64,000 bases of DNA from the NCBI GenBank assembly GCA_016286035.1, contig JAEERY010000013.1, positions 1 through 64,000 on the forward strand, written 5' to 3'. This document shows, piece by piece, positions 50,325-57,948 of this stretch. Both the position numbers and the translations under genes were made by a program. The notes beneath the pieces were generated by a model. It saw nothing but the letters and a program-made list of their open reading frames with translations, had not been told where the DNA came from and searched no databases. The number at the start of each line of letters is the position of its first letter. Within the stretch, counting starts at the first letter, position 1. The DNA is from Lachnospiraceae bacterium. GTDB lineage: Bacteria > Bacillota > Clostridia > Lachnospirales > Lachnospiraceae.

Positions 50325-53273
50325 TCAGGCCGACTCGATCATGTTAAGAAGATTGTCAAATCTCTCTTTCTCATTTTTGATCATCTCTTCGTTACCTACT
50401 ACGCAGATATATCCGTCTTTGAGTATCGCATCTATATAATCCGAAAGAGAACGTATCCTGTCAACATTGGTTGAGAGCACCTCATCTCTTTCCTTCTGAA
50501 AATCAGCCTCAGAAAGATTTGTCATATATGCGCTAAGAGACTTCAAGGCCTTTGCTGAAGGCGTAAGAGGCGTATCAAGTTCGCTTATAGCTCCTATGAT
50601 GTACTGTGTCATCGCTCTGTCATTGATATCAAAATTCTTAAGATAATCGGGAATGCCGTCATATACATCAAGAGTCTTTGCAAGGTTAGGATCCCTGTAT
50701 GAAACAAAGAAGCTGTCTCCGCTCTTTCCGAATGAACTCATGCATCCGTATGCACCGTTTTTTACTCTGACATTGAGCCACAGATAATCATAGCTCATGA
50801 TAACCCTTAATACTTTGAGACTTCCGGTGTAATTAAATCCTTTTTGAATGAAGTTTCCTCCTCTGCATACATAATTCACCTGAGATGAATTCATGATACC
50901 TTCATTCTTAACTTCCGGTACGGGTATATATACTCTATTGCTATTTAAATCCATATCCTTATCAGAAGCAAGATTATCAAGGAATACTTTGGATCTTTCT
51001 TCGAAGGCTTTATACTCTTTCTCGCTTCCCGCAAAATCAAACATCAGATTGTCTTTTCTGAATATCTGTTTTGAAAGCTTTATGAGTTTCTCGGCGTATT
51101 CGCTCTTTTTTGCATCATAGTCATTATCGATCTTTTCAATGAGCTTATAACTGCTGTATCCACTTAGTCTGTCTGTAATAACGGCACCTTTGCTGAAATA
51201 TGTTCCCGCTCTGCCTATAGCAACCTGGTGGCCGGAACTCATCATTGTAGCCTGTGCCCTTGATCTCATCTCACTTATGAGTTCTTTGTTTCTCTTCTCA
51301 TTATCAAGTACAGAGGTGAATATGATCTCCTCCATCAGTTCAAAAGCATCATCCAGCCCGCCTTCCAGGACCTTTGCTTTCCATTCAAACGTAACTCTGT
51401 TGTTATCAAGATTTTTTGAATCAGTATAGATGTTGCAGACAGGAACAATGCCGCCGGTCCTTATATTTATGACGTTAAAAAGTTCTCCATATGTATGTTT
51501 GGCCGTATCCACAAGTCCCATCGTGTTTTTGAGTGTGCCTACATAGCCAAACAGTTCATCATCAACATCAGTCACATCGAATATGAGTCTTACATAGTCT
51601 ATGCCATGAGTGTCAACGTCATGATAAAGGCTTTTAACCCCTTCGATGTCACGCATATCATTGTAAAGTTTTCCGGTCTCTTTTTTGATATCACTCAGTT
51701 CAAGTACAGGGATACACTCAAGCTGTTCCTCTGTGTCTTCCTGTTCCTGGTATTCTTTTAGCTCGGCTGTTTTTCTGACGATATCATCGATCTCATCCTT
51801 ACTCAATGTTGCTTTATATGAAGCCAGTTTTTCGGCAAGCTTTTTCTCTTCCTTTTCGACCAGTCCTACCTCAGGAGTAACTATGACTACTGATCTGTGA
51901 TTATTATTGAGAAGATATGTCTTAACAAGGCCTTCATAATAGCCAGTATCGATATTATCTCTCAGTGTTTTAAACGTCTCGCCCGCAGCTATATGTATGA
52001 ACGGCTTATTATCATCATAGAGCCAGCTGTCCAATACCTGGAGCCCATACATAAGACCCGGAGGATATGAACCGAAATCCGCCTCTCTGTACTTAAACTC
52101 AAGCGCATTAACAGCAGCACGCAGAGTATCTTTATCAAATCCGTTTTCTACTATATCCTCAAGAACTTCCTTTATAGTATCAAGAAACAGCTGCTTTTTG
52201 TCTTCATCGGAGTTCTTTGCAACTATCGAAAAATACGGCTGTTTTATGCCGTTCTCACAGTAGCTGTATATATCCTTGCCTATGCCTCTGTCTAACATCG
52301 TCTGCTTGAGTACCGCTCCAGGAGCTGTACACAAAGCGTAATCAAGTATTTGAAGAGCTATATACTCTACAGGATCAAGACTGTTACTGAACACGGCATT
52401 GTAAGATATATAAGTATTTTCTTTTAACGGTTCGCTTTCTGTTATCGAAAAGCTCTTGTTAATCTGAACAGGCTCATCGAATCCTTTTTGAGTTTCTATC
52501 TGTGAATCAACATTTAGCAATTCATATGAAGACAGATACTTTTCATCTATAAACGACAGTTTTTCCTCATAATCCATATCTCCGTAAAGATAGATATAGC
52601 TGTTGGATGGATGATAATACTTCTTATATGTCTCTATATATTTTTCATATGTAAGATTGGGGATATACTCAGGATCACCGCCCGATTCGTTTCCGTATGT
52701 CGTATCGGGGAACAGTGAATTGAAAATCTCTCTTTCAAGCACATCATCCGGAGAAGAAAATGCACCTTTCATCTCATTGTAGACAACACCGTTGATCGTA
52801 AGATCATCATCGGCATTCTCCATCTCATAATGCCATCCCTCCTGCTTGAATGTAAGATCATTCTTTAGGATGTTGGGATAGAAAACGGCATCCAGATATA
52901 CATGCATCAGATTCATGAAATCCTTGTCGTTAGTGCTTGCAACGGGATAAACAGTCTTATCCGGATAAGTCATTGCATTCAAAAAAGTATTTAATGAGCC
53001 CTTAACAAGCTCTACAAACGGATCCTTCACCGGGAATTCTTTTGATCCGCACAAAACAGAATGCTCCAGGATGTGCATCACGCCTGTACTGTCATTCGGC
53101 GTAGTCCTGAAGCCAATATAGAACACTTTATTGTCATCATCGTTGTTAAGGAGAACAACTCTTGCTCCCGATCTTTTGTGTCTTAACAGGTATCCAACAC
53201 TGTTAAGATCATCTATATTCTCCTTACTTATAAGTTCATAAGCACCAAGCTTTTCGAAATCGATATTTCTCAC
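50325..53273 (-). CDS. M16C (presequence-protease-like) zinc metallopeptidase
   Basis: A 982-residue single-chain M16 peptidase of the PreP/PqqL-like C subfamily. The inverted zinc motif HILEH is at 67-71 and the downstream acidic ligand lies around VVYNEMKGA. Four M16 lobes fit the length. No signal peptide is present, so it acts in the cytoplasm on short peptides or signal sequences. It follows a small unknown gene by 27 bases. Confidence 0.9.
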   Translation of the reverse strand: MRNIDFEKLGAYELISKENIDDLNSVGYLLRHKRSGARVVLLNNDDDNKVFYIGFRTTPNDSTGVMHILEHSVLCGSKEFPVKDPFVELVKGSLNTFLNAMTYPDKTVYPVASTNDKDFMNLMHVYLDAVFYPNILKNDLTFKQEGWHYEMENADDDLTINGVVYNEMKGAFSSPDDVLEREIFNSLFPDTTYGNESGGDPEYIPNLTYEKYIETYKKYYHPSNSYIYLYGDMDYEEKLSFIDEKYLSSYELLNVDSQIETQKGFDEPVQINKSFSITESEPLKENTYISYNAVFSNSLDPVEYIALQILDYALCTAPGAVLKQTMLDRGIGKDIYSYCENGIKQPYFSIVAKNSDEDKKQLFLDTIKEVLEDIVENGFDKDTLRAAVNALEFKYREADFGSYPPGLMYGLQVLDSWLYDDNKPFIHIAAGETFKTLRDNIDTGYYEGLVKTYLLNNNHRSVVIVTPEVGLVEKEEKKLAEKLASYKATLSKDEIDDIVRKTAELKEYQEQEDTEEQLECIPVLELSDIKKETGKLYNDMRDIEGVKSLYHDVDTHGIDYVRLIFDVTDVDDELFGYVGTLKNTMGLVDTAKHTYGELFNVINIRTGGIVPVCNIYTDSKNLDNNRVTFEWKAKVLEGGLDDAFELMEEIIFTSVLDNEKRNKELISEMRSRAQATMMSSGHQVAIGRAGTYFSKGAVITDRLSGYSSYKLIEKIDNDYDAKKSEYAEKLIKLSKQIFRKDNLMFDFAGSEKEYKAFEERSKVFLDNLASDKDMDLNSNRVYIPVPEVKNEGIMNSSQVNYVCRGGNFIQKGFNYTGSLKVLRVIMSYDYLWLNVRVKNGAYGCMSSFGKSGDSFFVSYRDPNLAKTLDVYDGIPDYLKNFDINDRAMTQYIIGAISELDTPLTPSAKALKSLSAYMTNLSEADFQKERDEVLSTNVDRIRSLSDYIDAILKDGYICVVGNEEMIKNEKERFDNLLNMIESA

Positions 53274-53300: not shown

Positions 53301-53693
53301 TTATGATACACCCAGCATGTTTATCTTGCTGATATGCATCTCTTCTACAAATATCGTATTCATGTTCTCATGAAGATATTCATCATCTACTATTTCATCG
53401 ATCTTGAGATCATGAGCAATATAAGACTCTTTTTTATCATCAAAAACATAGAGTCTGAACTTTGCTTTTAGTTTTTTATATATCATATATGACATATCTT
53501 CTTTTTTCATGAAAAAGATATGATTTTCAATGCTGGTCTCTCTGGACATCTCTTTTAATATATATCTGGACAGGATGATCTTAAACTTGAAAGGTATCTC
53601 ATCAATATCCAGCATCTCACCATATGTGAGTTTTGCACCTATATAAAGATTTGTCACGTCCTGAACGACATGCTTGTAATCTCTTTCTGCCAT
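53301..53693 (-). CDS. Hypothetical protein
   Basis: A 130-residue acidic protein with repeated hydrophobic strands and no cysteine. Nothing in it matches a family I recognise. It lies 4 bases after the sigma-like gene and 27 bases before the M16C gene, so it is part of the same transcript. Tight spacing supports it as a real gene. Confidence 0.6.
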   Translation of the reverse strand: MAERDYKHVVQDVTNLYIGAKLTYGEMLDIDEIPFKFKIILSRYILKEMSRETSIENHIFFMKKEDMSYMIYKKLKAKFRLYVFDDKKESYIAHDLKIDEIVDDEYLHENMNTIFVEEMHISKINMLGVS

Positions 53694-53697
53694 AAAG

Positions 53698-54429
53698 CTA
53701 ACCTATATCCTCAATCTTTCCACCGCTGATTCTTATGGCTTCCTCGATCGCTTTACGTGACAGATTGCTCTCTGATACAAGCTCATCGATAGTCACTTTT
53801 CTTCCAAGTACGGATGCCAGTTCCCTTGCTGCATCAGCAACCGTATTTACCTTGTTGACAAGTTTATCGTCGGTCTTTCTGTTACCTATCTCATCGCTGA
53901 TAACCTCTTCCATAGCATCCATCGCCATCTTTGCGAGCATTCCCGGGACCTCATCGGGTTCTTCGAGTGCACCGAGCATCTCAACACCCACAGAAAGAGC
54001 AACATTGCCTTCACCGATAAGATCTTCGATAAAGACACCCTGTCCGGTATAAAGCTTTGCCATATCGACAACATCCGATAACATCGATTCGATAAGCTTC
54101 TTCTTTGCTTCGGCTTCACCGGCCATGGCTGCCATGTAAACGGCTCTTTTTTCACCGTCAGTAAGTTTAGGGATATCCGAAAGGCTCTCTGTGTACAGTT
54201 CAAGATAATCTATCTCATCAGAAGAAAGATACTTATCAAGATCCACCTTCTCGCCGACACCTATCTTTTTACTCTTAAGATAATCGTAAACAGGTCCAAG
54301 CTGGGACTCGTCCATACCTATCTCGCTCAGAGCCTCAATGATCTGACCCTTTGATACTACATTCCCCTGTATGGATGCCAGTTCCGTAAGTTCTTCTATC
54401 TTTTTGGCAAATTCAAGTTCCTGATTCAT
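53698..54429 (-). CDS. Sigma-70-derived protein lacking promoter-melting residues and region 4
   Basis: The 243 residues align by eye to primary sigma factors: region 1.1-like (6-58), 1.2-like (71-102), then 2.1/2.2 (103-153), with KLIESMLSDVVDMAKLYTGQG and DLIGEGN (136-142) matching the core-RNAP-binding helix. Residues 154-192 occupy the position of 2.3/2.4 but lack the aromatic KFSTYATWWIRQ signature. Residues 193-243 resemble region 3 (ELASVLGRKVTIDELVSESNLS). Region 4, which reads the -35, is absent. So it may bind RNA polymerase core yet not open or select promoters (inference). Confidence 0.62.
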   Translation of the reverse strand: MNQELEFAKKIEELTELASIQGNVVSKGQIIEALSEIGMDESQLGPVYDYLKSKKIGVGEKVDLDKYLSSDEIDYLELYTESLSDIPKLTDGEKRAVYMAAMAGEAEAKKKLIESMLSDVVDMAKLYTGQGVFIEDLIGEGNVALSVGVEMLGALEEPDEVPGMLAKMAMDAMEEVISDEIGNRKTDDKLVNKVNTVADAARELASVLGRKVTIDELVSESNLSRKAIEEAIRISGGKIEDIG

Positions 54430-55357: not shown

Positions 55358-56254
55358 TCATTTGATCTCAGGTATTTCACAGAAACGATTGTATTCCTCA
55401 TCTATTTTCATGAATTTTTCTTTATCACCTGTAACCGCATTGTCCGGATGGAATTTTGTGGCATATTTGTGATAGAGTTTCTTTGCCTCTGTCTTTGATT
55501 TGCACATGGCAAAATATCTGAGATTGTATTTTCTTGCAAAGGCGTGCTGTTTAGCAACTTCCTTTTCGACATCACTCATCTCAGATTCGGGCTTTGTGCC
55601 GTAGTAATTGTTATTTGTACCCGAAGCGGTATTACTCCTGCTACCGGCATATCCGCCTGCTGTGTTACGATAGCTCCTGTTGTCACTGGAACGATTGCTT
55701 CCGTAACTTCCTGTATTCTGATAATACGTTCCGTTCTTATGGCTTGCGGACCATTCGTTGAATTCCTGCTCTGGTGACTTGGTCTGTCCGAATGCCCCCC
55801 ATCCTCCGGACATATTCTGTCCGAAGAAATTATTCTCAAGCTGTCTTTGCTGTTTTGCCCTTTTGCTTCCGAAAAGCCAGAAGAATCTGGGATCGTGTGC
55901 TATCTCCCAGTTTTCAAACGCATCCTTTATACCGTCATTATTAAGATCATCTGAGAAATACTCGGAATAAAACTGCTTGTATTCCGCATAATTCTTAGGA
56001 TTGTTTTCCTTGTATTTCGTAAAGACACATGACCACCATATGACAAACGCAAGAAACACAAATACATATATCAGCGAGAAGAATCCTCCTTCATGAAAGC
56101 CTATCATCGGAATGCTGATAACATAGTAAATAAGCTCTCCTGTAGAAAAGAACCTTTTTCTTAAGAAGCATCTTGTGATTATGAAAACAGGTATCAAAAA
56201 CCAAAACAGAAAAACTCTCGCGGTATTGATTATAAAGTCATATGAAACTATCAT
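55358..56254 (-). CDS. Membrane-anchored J-domain protein
   Basis: Two N-terminal transmembrane helices (about 8-28 and 55-78) lead to an acidic/Asn-Gly-Ser-rich linker and a C-terminal J domain with HPD at 269-271 (KFHPDNAVTG). J domains stimulate DnaK ATPase. This one would recruit DnaK to the membrane. The start overlaps the HerA-like stop by 3 bases (ATGA). Confidence 0.8.
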   Translation of the reverse strand: MIVSYDFIINTARVFLFWFLIPVFIITRCFLRKRFFSTGELIYYVISIPMIGFHEGGFFSLIYVFVFLAFVIWWSCVFTKYKENNPKNYAEYKQFYSEYFSDDLNNDGIKDAFENWEIAHDPRFFWLFGSKRAKQQRQLENNFFGQNMSGGWGAFGQTKSPEQEFNEWSASHKNGTYYQNTGSYGSNRSSDNRSYRNTAGGYAGSRSNTASGTNNNYYGTKPESEMSDVEKEVAKQHAFARKYNLRYFAMCKSKTEAKKLYHKYATKFHPDNAVTGDKEKFMKIDEEYNRFCEIPEIK

Positions 56255-57948
56255 TTAAACATGATCCCCATTAGATTTCTTCCGATAGAAGCACCAACAT
56301 TTCCGCCGAGTTTCTTACCAAACTTACCGAAGCTTGATCCGATGGAATTTCCGATCTCTCTTCCGATCGTTCCGGTAGCCGTGCTTGCAACACTCTTAGC
56401 CGCACGCTTGTAAGCCTTTGCGGTATCACTTTCCTTCTTTGAAGCCTTTGCACTTTCCTTCTCTGCTTTGCTCTCTTTGCCGGGATGATTCGGATTGGGC
56501 TTCTTTATCTTGCTGTCTCTTTCTGCCTTTCTGGCAGCAAGTTCAGCTTCGAGTTCTTCTATCCTCTTTTGATCATCACTCTTTTCGGCCTCTTTAGCTG
56601 AAGCAGCTACAGCCTGCTGTTCTGCATCAGCCTTTGCATCAGCGGATTCCATACCCTGCTGTGCAACGCTTGTAAGTATCTCATAAGCCGATTCTCTGTC
56701 TATAACATCGTAAAACTTTGAATACAGCGGATTATTTCTTACTACATTCTTTCGTGTATCATCATCAATGATACCCATAAAGCTCTGAGGCGGCAGAATG
56801 CTCGTCTTCTTGACTATGGTAGGAACACCCTTCTCATCAAGGACTGATACAAGTGCTTCACCGACTCCCAGCTCTGTGAGAACACTGAATGTATCAAACT
56901 CAGGATTTGCCCTGAATGACTTGGCAGCAACCTTAGCACCTTCAAGTTCCTTGGGTGTATATGCGCGAAGGGCATGTTGTATCTTATTGCTAAGCTGTCC
57001 AAGCACACCGTCCGGTATGTCCTTTGGATTCTGTGTTATGAAGTAAACACCTACGCCCTTGGATCTGACAAGTTTTACGATCTGCTCTATCTTTGTGAGC
57101 AGGGTCCTGCTCGCATTGTCAAAGAGCATATGTGCCTCATCAAAGAAGAATACGATCTTGGGCTTATCAAGATCTCCTGCTTCCGGCATGTTCTCATACA
57201 GTTCCGAAAGGAGCCAGAGCATAAACGTTGAGTACATGTTCGGATTGTTTATCAGTTTCTGACAGTCAAGAATATTTATCCTTCCCTTGCCGTCATATTC
57301 TGTGATAAGGAAATCCTCCATCCTTATCGCAGGTTCCATAAAGAAGCCTTCTGCACCTTCACTCTCAAGAGCAACAATGGCTCTTACTATGACGCTCAGA
57401 CTAGCTTCAGTCATCTTTCCATACTGAGCAGCATATTCAGAAGCATGCTCCGAAACGTAATTTATCATTGATTTAAGGTCCTTTGTGTCAAGCAGCAAAA
57501 GTCCCTCATCATCCGCGATCTTGAATATGATCGTAAGAAGGTCTGACTGTGTCTCGTTAAGGTTTAATATTCTTCCCAAAAGCAATGGACCCATCTCTGA
57601 GATCGTTGTTCTTAAGTTTATACCCTTCTCGCCGTATACATCCCAGAAAGTCGTGGGATATGCTCTCAGCGAGAATCCTTTTGAGAAAAGATCGAGTGCC
57701 TCAATTCTTTTTTCAACAGAACCGCTGTTTTCGCCGGCCTGGCACATTCCGGAAAGGTCACCCTTTACATCAGCCAGAAATACCGGAACTCCGGCATCCG
57801 AAAAAGATTCGGCCATAACTTTAAGCGTAACAGTCTTACCTGTACCTGTAGCACCTGCTATCATCCCATGTCTGTTTGCCATATTGGGATATATATATAT
57901 ATCTTCCTCTCCTGATCTTCCAATCCAAATCTTACCGTCCTGATACAT
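56251..57948 (-). CDS. HerA/DUF853-family ATPase
   Basis: A 565-residue HerA-like/FtsK-type ATPase with Walker A GATGTGKT (32-39) and Walker B IVFFFDEAH. Family members are annotated as DNA translocases, but their substrate is usually unknown. The last about 90 residues are lysine/serine-rich and then glycine-rich. It heads the minus-strand run to 49860 and is divergent from the AraC gene. Confidence 0.82.
   Translation of the reverse strand: MYQDGKIWIGRSGEEDIYIYPNMANRHGMIAGATGTGKTVTLKVMAESFSDAGVPVFLADVKGDLSGMCQAGENSGSVEKRIEALDLFSKGFSLRAYPTTFWDVYGEKGINLRTTISEMGPLLLGRILNLNETQSDLLTIIFKIADDEGLLLLDTKDLKSMINYVSEHASEYAAQYGKMTEASLSVIVRAIVALESEGAEGFFMEPAIRMEDFLITEYDGKGRINILDCQKLINNPNMYSTFMLWLLSELYENMPEAGDLDKPKIVFFFDEAHMLFDNASRTLLTKIEQIVKLVRSKGVGVYFITQNPKDIPDGVLGQLSNKIQHALRAYTPKELEGAKVAAKSFRANPEFDTFSVLTELGVGEALVSVLDEKGVPTIVKKTSILPPQSFMGIIDDDTRKNVVRNNPLYSKFYDVIDRESAYEILTSVAQQGMESADAKADAEQQAVAASAKEAEKSDDQKRIEELEAELAARKAERDSKIKKPNPNHPGKESKAEKESAKASKKESDTAKAYKRAAKSVASTATGTIGREIGNSIGSSFGKFGKKLGGNVGASIGRNLMGIMFK

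Follow-up and report, generated by a model that had tools for sequence, protein, structure and literature searches.

A sigma-like gene in a compact minus-strand gene run

The window analysed here is a 64,000-nucleotide stretch of DNA from a Lachnospiraceae bacterium (assembly GCA_016286035.1, contig JAEERY010000013.1, positions 1 to 64,000). An open reading frame at 53698-54429 on the minus strand begins with ATG and encodes a 243-aa protein, P0001. Together with its neighbours on the same strand it forms a closely packed series of genes in which no gap exceeds 47 bases:

56251-57948, minus strand: HerA-type ATPase, in the same gene run as P0001
55358-56254, minus strand: DnaJ-domain protein, in the same gene run as P0001
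54453-55310, minus strand: rhomboid-like membrane protein with a C-terminal Cys/His finger; a conserved neighbour, not a specific partner
53698-54429, minus strand: pseudo-sigma gene P0001, 243 aa (ORF list, sigma homology and dN/dS)
53301-53693, minus strand: w130, a 130-aa candidate partner (co-occurrence; weak profile and fold match to FAD_binding_5)
50325-53273, minus strand: M16C (PreP-type) peptidase, downstream operon gene (Pfam)
after the M16C/PreP-type peptidase, minus strand: 147-aa protein, the last of the run

A regular RpoD of 379 aa is encoded elsewhere in the genome, on a different contig. The Pfam cut-off for sigma region 2 was exceeded at 13 places in the genome, and the P0001 gene, with 14.9 bits, is not among them.

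Regarding the neighbours, the pseudo-sigma gene is immediately preceded by the rhomboid-like gene in 33/33 neighbourhoods of subgroup A, the group of close P0001 relatives described below. It was also found in 68 of 70 Lachnospiraceae genomes, which makes it a neighbour rather than a marker and rules it out as a specific partner. The term rhomboid-like for its product is ours and comes from inspecting the sequence; Pfam gave nothing above the cut-off. The C-terminal Cys/His finger is conserved (HKCAICGrT...FRFCSKCnGNYEYC.dHLFTH). Since only one of the 33 rhomboid-like family sequences contains a GxSG string, the protein is probably not a serine protease. The M16C peptidase was found near the pseudo-sigma gene in 25/33 subgroup A loci.

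P0001 is homologous to RpoD through region 3.1

The initial annotation had described P0001 as a sigma-70-like protein aligning through regions 1.1 to 3. Profile matches far beyond chance bear out the sigma-70-like assignment. The best E value against the NCBIfam sigma models was 2.7e-15 (residues 78-234), with further alignments beginning at residue 46 or 71, while PDB sigma chains matched residues 64-235 with E values down to 2.6e-11, and the RpoD of the same genome matched residues 73-236 (E 1.1e-14). A profile built from 41 family rows (A1, which leaves out L009, cut by a contig end, and L015, L049, L058, L062, L064 and L068) aligned with RpoDs from the order's other families over approximately positions 3 to 237, corresponding to regions 1.1 to 3.1, with E values down to 1.5e-36. 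Pfam gave weak matches in P0001, all below the cut-off, for region 3 (4.3e-4), region 2 (0.0078) and region 1.1 (0.74), and no match for region 1.2. Region 1.1 is weak in P0001 itself by Pfam, and passes the cut-off in another family member, L153 (2.1e-5).

The AlphaFold2 model of P0001 is mainly helical (mean pLDDT 90.4, pTM 0.67), with a helix at residues 134-149. All 25 PDB matches found by Foldseek with E <= 0.001 were sigma or sigma-RNAP entries, the sigma chain being confirmed by name for several of them. The TM scores of the best 25 matches, normalized by query, were 0.27-0.38, which, together with the pTM, means that the domain arrangement of P0001 differs or is unsure. Chance helical similarity was ruled out by the NCBIfam, PDB chain, A1 and Foldseek matches: P0001 is homologous to RpoD through region 3.1, probably beginning with region 1.1. 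Its parts are as follows (all on the minus strand):

54244-54429, residues 1-62: region 1.1-like part (alignment of A1 with RpoDs begins near position 3)
54118-54222, residues 70-104: region 1.2-like part, degenerate (several NCBIfam alignments start at 71-78)
53983-54117, residues 105-149: regions 2.1-2.2, including the putative beta' clamp-docking helix (conservation; AlphaFold2 helix)
54004-54024, residues 136-142: DLIGEGN motif (invariance in A1)
53890-53982, residues 150-180: 2.3/2.4 position, acidic and devoid of aromatics (residue counts and mapping)
53722-53889, residues 181-236: region 3.0-3.1-like part (weak Pfam region 3 match at 193-235)

The DLIGEGN motif stands in the place of DLIQEGN in RpoD, and D136, L137, G139, E140, G141 and N142 are invariant across the 41 rows of A1. 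At the 2.3/2.4 position, P0001 has no aromatic residue, three K/R and nine D/E, against seven, seven and two in its own RpoD, so that the loss of the melting aromatics noted in the initial annotation is confirmed. The extended -10 residues H455 and E458 are not kept. Region 4 is missing, as also noted, and the region 3.2 finger is absent too; the C-terminus lies in region 3.1.

An unnamed family with two subgroups

P0001 is a member of an unnamed Lachnospiraceae family, of which a full-text search of open-licence PMC papers yielded no description that we recognised. The pseudo-sigma gene is present in 20/20 genomes of the genus; Candidatus Colinaster equi and scatohippi are among the named relatives. 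Close relatives (subgroup A) were found in 39 of 299 sampled Lachnospiraceae genomes (E <= 3.2e-36). Subgroup B comprises divergent proteins of about 250-330 aa, drawn from 37 other genomes. As an approximate figure for the wider family, at least 49 of 70 genomes gave a match in an open frame of 332 aa or less, which is too short for a whole RpoD. In the order's other families (173 genomes), the open frames among the matches listed were of RpoD length, 334-416 aa, and five genomes had no profile match.

The 95-row tree placed all 30 RpoDs on one branch (100) and 27 of the 28 subgroup A rows on another (100), while subgroup B did not form a single branch. The tree was a quick one with long branches and a midpoint root, and serves for grouping only. 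The remaining subgroup A row, L122, belongs to A by its neighbours, lies outside the A clade, and was counted among the 28. A truncated RpoD-like ORF, L154b, was excluded from the tree and from the residue comparison below.

In three genomes of the genus, where both genes share a contig, the pseudo-sigma gene lies about 10.5, 38 and 42 kb from rpoD and in the same direction; in the remaining genus genomes listed, they are on different contigs. This same-direction proximity fits an old local duplication of rpoD as the source of the pseudo-sigma. Among more distant matches, seven IMG/VR loci (31-35% identity over part of P0001) and two Bacteroidales loci (L042 and L043) may be ordinary sigma factors. 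A phage origin was rejected, with no PHROGs match at E <= 0.01 for P0001, w130 or the rhomboid-like protein.

The gene is under purifying selection. We obtained dN/dS values of 0.029 and 0.107 against orthologues with 94% and 76% identity, respectively; dS was near saturation, so the ratios are rough, and three further comparisons yielded none. These values and the presence of the gene in every genome of the genus rule out a decaying pseudogene. Residues 128-150 show no amino acid change against the 94% orthologue, with a pS there of 0.51, and residues 128-149 are the best conserved part of A1, with a mean pairwise identity of 0.73 against 0.42-0.53 in the other regions.

Clamp-facing acids are kept and promoter-reading residues are lost

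We compared 65 family proteins (28 of subgroup A and 37 of subgroup B, the genus being represented by P0001 and four relatives only) with 30 RpoDs, with sigma70 numbering carried over by motif across the ungapped block that surrounds DLIQEGN. F419, Y430, W433 and W434 are described as holding the flipped -11A (PMC7057261), and another report terms the W-dyad invariant and has Q437 contacting -12T (PMC12000874). On the polymerase-binding side, the listed contacts of sigma32 with the beta' clamp helices include D77 and E81, and also M87, in the place of position 413 (PMC10216364), and acidic sigma2 residues contacting the positive clamp are called essential (PMC8103513). By our reading of the motif spacing, D403 and E407 correspond to sigma32 D77 and E81.

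The two sets of residues have fared very differently. Among the 65 family proteins, D403, L404, G408 and N409 are each kept in 64, E407 in 62 and L412 in 59. The promoter-facing F419 is kept in five, W433 in one, Q437 in six, and W434 and T440 in none. In the RpoDs, D403, L404, E407, G408, N409, W433 and W434 are each present in 30/30. P0001 itself keeps D136, E140 and N142, equivalent to D403, E407 and N409 of the clamp-docking motif, and has L, M, K, M and D at F419, Y430, W433, W434 and Q437. Mean retention in region 2.2 was 0.53 for subgroup A and 0.66 for B, compared with 0.08 and 0.15 in regions 2.3-2.4. According to these results, the anatomy proposed for P0001 alone, with the RNAP-binding part kept and the melting and -35-reading parts lost, is a conserved trait of the family. 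The RpoC (beta') clamp helices of the same genome carry, by our mapping, all eight clamp residues in the list of PMC10216364.

Within this pattern the subgroups differ. In subgroup A, Q406 is changed to G in 26/28, L402 to E in 25/28, and position 413 is mostly A, T or S (21/28); P0001 accordingly has Q406G and M413S. In subgroup B, Q406 is kept in 34/37 and position 413 is L or M in 27/37. Tyrosine is found at Y430 in 16/65 proteins (2/28 A and 14/37 B) and phenylalanine in 15 more (six A and nine B). With Y430 partly kept and R436 present in 15/37, subgroup B has not lost every promoter-facing residue.

Charge was also altered. The net charge over positions 379-498 is +4.2 in RpoD, -13.0 in A, -13.8 in B and -14 in P0001, and over positions 414-445 it is +3.8 in RpoD, -5.5 in A and -4.4 in B. 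The difference is only regional, since whole RpoD is acidic too (whole-protein pI 4.62 vs 4.38).

w130, a candidate partner of subgroup A

The gene immediately downstream of P0001, w130, was found in 29/33 subgroup A neighbourhoods (the exceptions being L037, at a contig edge, L113, L122 and L124) and in 0/37 subgroup B neighbourhoods. In a 245-genome sample of the order, the 28 genomes with a subgroup A gene (E <= 2.3e-67) were the same 28 that had w130 (E <= 9.3e-35), one of the copies carrying an internal stop; none of the 217 non-carriers had w130 at that strength, and two of them gave weak matches (5.7e-7 and 4.3e-6). In the 70-genome sample, where the 13 subgroup A carriers were assigned by profile scores or by the adjacent rhomboid-like gene, w130 was present in 11/13 carriers (not in G090 and G091) and in 0/57 others. 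This tracking of the subgroup A pseudo-sigma by w130 is new here.

In G521, G491, G509 and G512, four of the 28 genomes, a distance of 22 kb or more separates w130 from the pseudo-sigma gene, so the link is not merely one of adjacency. These four are all members of a single genus (g191), and one move may account for them. The 28 carriers span nine genera, so the genomes do not count as independent cases, and common descent by itself accounts for part of the pattern.

We found no family match for w130 in Pfam, NCBIfam or PHROGs. The two weak matches sit in molybdopterin-dehydrogenase-type proteins, and in the one scanned FAD_binding_5 covers the matched part. The AlphaFold2 model of w130 is alpha/beta (pLDDT 90.9), and its best fold matches are flavoprotein subunits of the molybdopterin-dehydrogenase type (E 9.2e-4, TM 0.60). 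The GG[TS]D and [TS]IGGN motifs of its FAD_binding_5 relatives have no counterpart in w130, so this protein, too, looks degenerate: it resembles a decayed relative of a molybdo-flavoprotein FAD domain. A role as sigma region 4 or as an anti-sigma found no support in Pfam, in NCBIfam or in the flavoprotein-like alpha/beta fold.

A proposed promoter-blind factor on the core clamp

Compared with group 1 sigma-70 factors (RpoD/SigA; PF03979, PF04542, PF04539), P0001 shares regions 1.2, 2.1, 2.2 and 3.0-3.1, probably region 1.1 as well, and the clamp-docking acids, but lacks the -10 melting aromatics, the extended -10 residues, the 3.2 finger and region 4, and is acidic through 2.1-3.1. The reading we tentatively put first, with a confidence a little short of even, is that P0001 is a degenerate RpoD duplicate, a promoter-blind pseudo-sigma that docks on the beta' clamp and, in subgroup A, works with w130. 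The region 2.2 helix would dock on the clamp helices of core RNA polymerase. Bound P0001 would be unable to start transcription, as the -10 pockets, the W-dyad, the extended -10 residues, the finger and region 4 are gone and 2.1-3.1 is acidic, and it would keep DNA and RpoD off. In this way it could lower or store active polymerase, with w130 completing or controlling it in subgroup A. We infer docking on core, competition with RpoD, the role of w130 and the timing of these events from the residues and genes retained; for subgroup A, with Q406G and M413S changed, core binding is the more conjectural.

Several points weigh against this reading. Region 2.2 could be kept for another protein or for the fold; positions 406, 413 and 402 are changed in subgroup A; some aromatic character survives at Y430, and R436 in 15/37 of B; and region 1.2 is degenerate. 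One could also argue that P0001 attaches to the clamp, be it of core or of elongating polymerase, without competing with RpoD, as an adaptor that would recycle, pause or tether the enzyme, possibly through w130. The same clamp-docking residues and the acidic character of the pseudo-sigma agree with this, and a co-occurring second protein suggests an adaptor. Nothing here tells elongation complexes from free core, however, and w130 has no family match. We regard such an adaptor as unlikely.

Titration of an anti-sigma that recognises sigma region 2, freeing a real sigma, seems improbable. Its model is the alphaproteobacterial mimic PhyR, described as an ECF-like sigma domain with a receiver and no initiation function (PMC4598750, PMC8103513), whose core-binding region is called degenerate (PMC8103513). 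P0001 resembles it in having a sigma-like domain that should not initiate transcription, but is RpoD-like, and its core-binding acids are kept (with 406 and 413 changed). It also lacks the receiver: no C-terminal receiver was matched by Pfam in P0001, and its sigma-like matches extend as far as residue 235 of the 243. Pfam and NCBIfam scans of four neighbours revealed no anti-sigma gene. The initial annotation had offered a core-binding competitor, an anti-sigma-like decoy or a polymerase-associated adaptor; since the clamp-facing acids rank with the best-kept residues, the sequence favours a clamp-docking factor over the anti-sigma decoy.

We give a similarly low probability to a loss of polymerase binding altogether, with region 2.2 and the rest kept for w130 or another protein in a function outside transcription. 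The co-occurrence of w130 with subgroup A, the changes at 406 and 413 in that subgroup, and the membrane protein and peptidase next door would be in keeping with it. Subgroup B, however, keeps the acids, Q406 (34/37) and L or M at 413 (27/37), yet has no w130 in its 37 neighbourhoods. Finally, it is very improbable that P0001 is one half of a split but functional sigma whose region 4 comes from a different protein: RsoA-SigO of Bacillus subtilis is a precedent for a sigma2-bearing protein without region 4 plus a second protein, and there is a co-occurring gene here, but RsoA-SigO is reported to initiate transcription, whereas P0001 has lost the W-dyad and the -10 pocket residues in a region turned acidic, and w130, predicted to be alpha/beta with flavoprotein subunits as best fold matches, is not sigma4-like.

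For the clamp-docking competitor, sigma mimicry is already known and precedents exist for parts of the proposal (SigN, TFS4 and PhyR), by analogy. SigN is reported to outcompete SigA for core, and TFS4 is described as an archaeal paralogue turned RNAP inhibitor. The likeness is one of working only (core competition, and a transcription factor paralogue turned inhibitor), as SigN is a working sigma and TFS4 a paralogue of a cleavage factor, a different protein. Anti-sigma factors act on sigma; the proposed pseudo-sigma brake would act on core.

Many gut and rumen Lachnospiraceae appear to keep a decayed copy of their main sigma, with the polymerase-docking surface kept and promoter reading and opening lost, which suggests that the protein is a home-grown adaptor of transcription or a brake on it, and not a factor that turns it on. 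The general form of this idea, that RpoD-derived pseudo-sigmas plug the core clamp, blind to promoters and repelling DNA, with a dedicated partner in subgroup A, as a polymerase reserve or brake, is possible, though we hold it with some doubt. Should it hold, transcription in an abundant bacterial family of gut and rumen would be regulated through a competitor for core that derives from sigma, and evolution would have separated the docking and promoter-reading functions of sigma. The pseudo-sigma would offer a natural tool for probing the beta' clamp and, with w130, a two-gene module open to in vitro testing.

Other observations on related loci

In 7/37 subgroup B loci (L129, L132, L135, L148, L153, L156 and L157), the gene immediately upstream of the pseudo-sigma gene belongs to a single cluster. 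Its one scanned member encodes a PDZ-S41 (CtpA/CtpB-type) peptidase, which makes this a second type of neighbourhood with a protease. Near another subgroup B pseudo-sigma gene, a 203-aa RpoD-like ORF (L154:3366-3974, minus strand) has intact regions 1.1 and 1.2 and W-dyad and ends just past TWWLR; it is a truncated RpoD copy or an assembly fault. One Lachnospiraceae genome contains tandem RpoD-length matches in open frames of 384 and 368 aa (G078:C2:379845-381756). Some subgroup B pseudo-sigmas (L127, L135, L138, L141, L153 and L156) end in His-rich C-terminal tails, which could bind metal.
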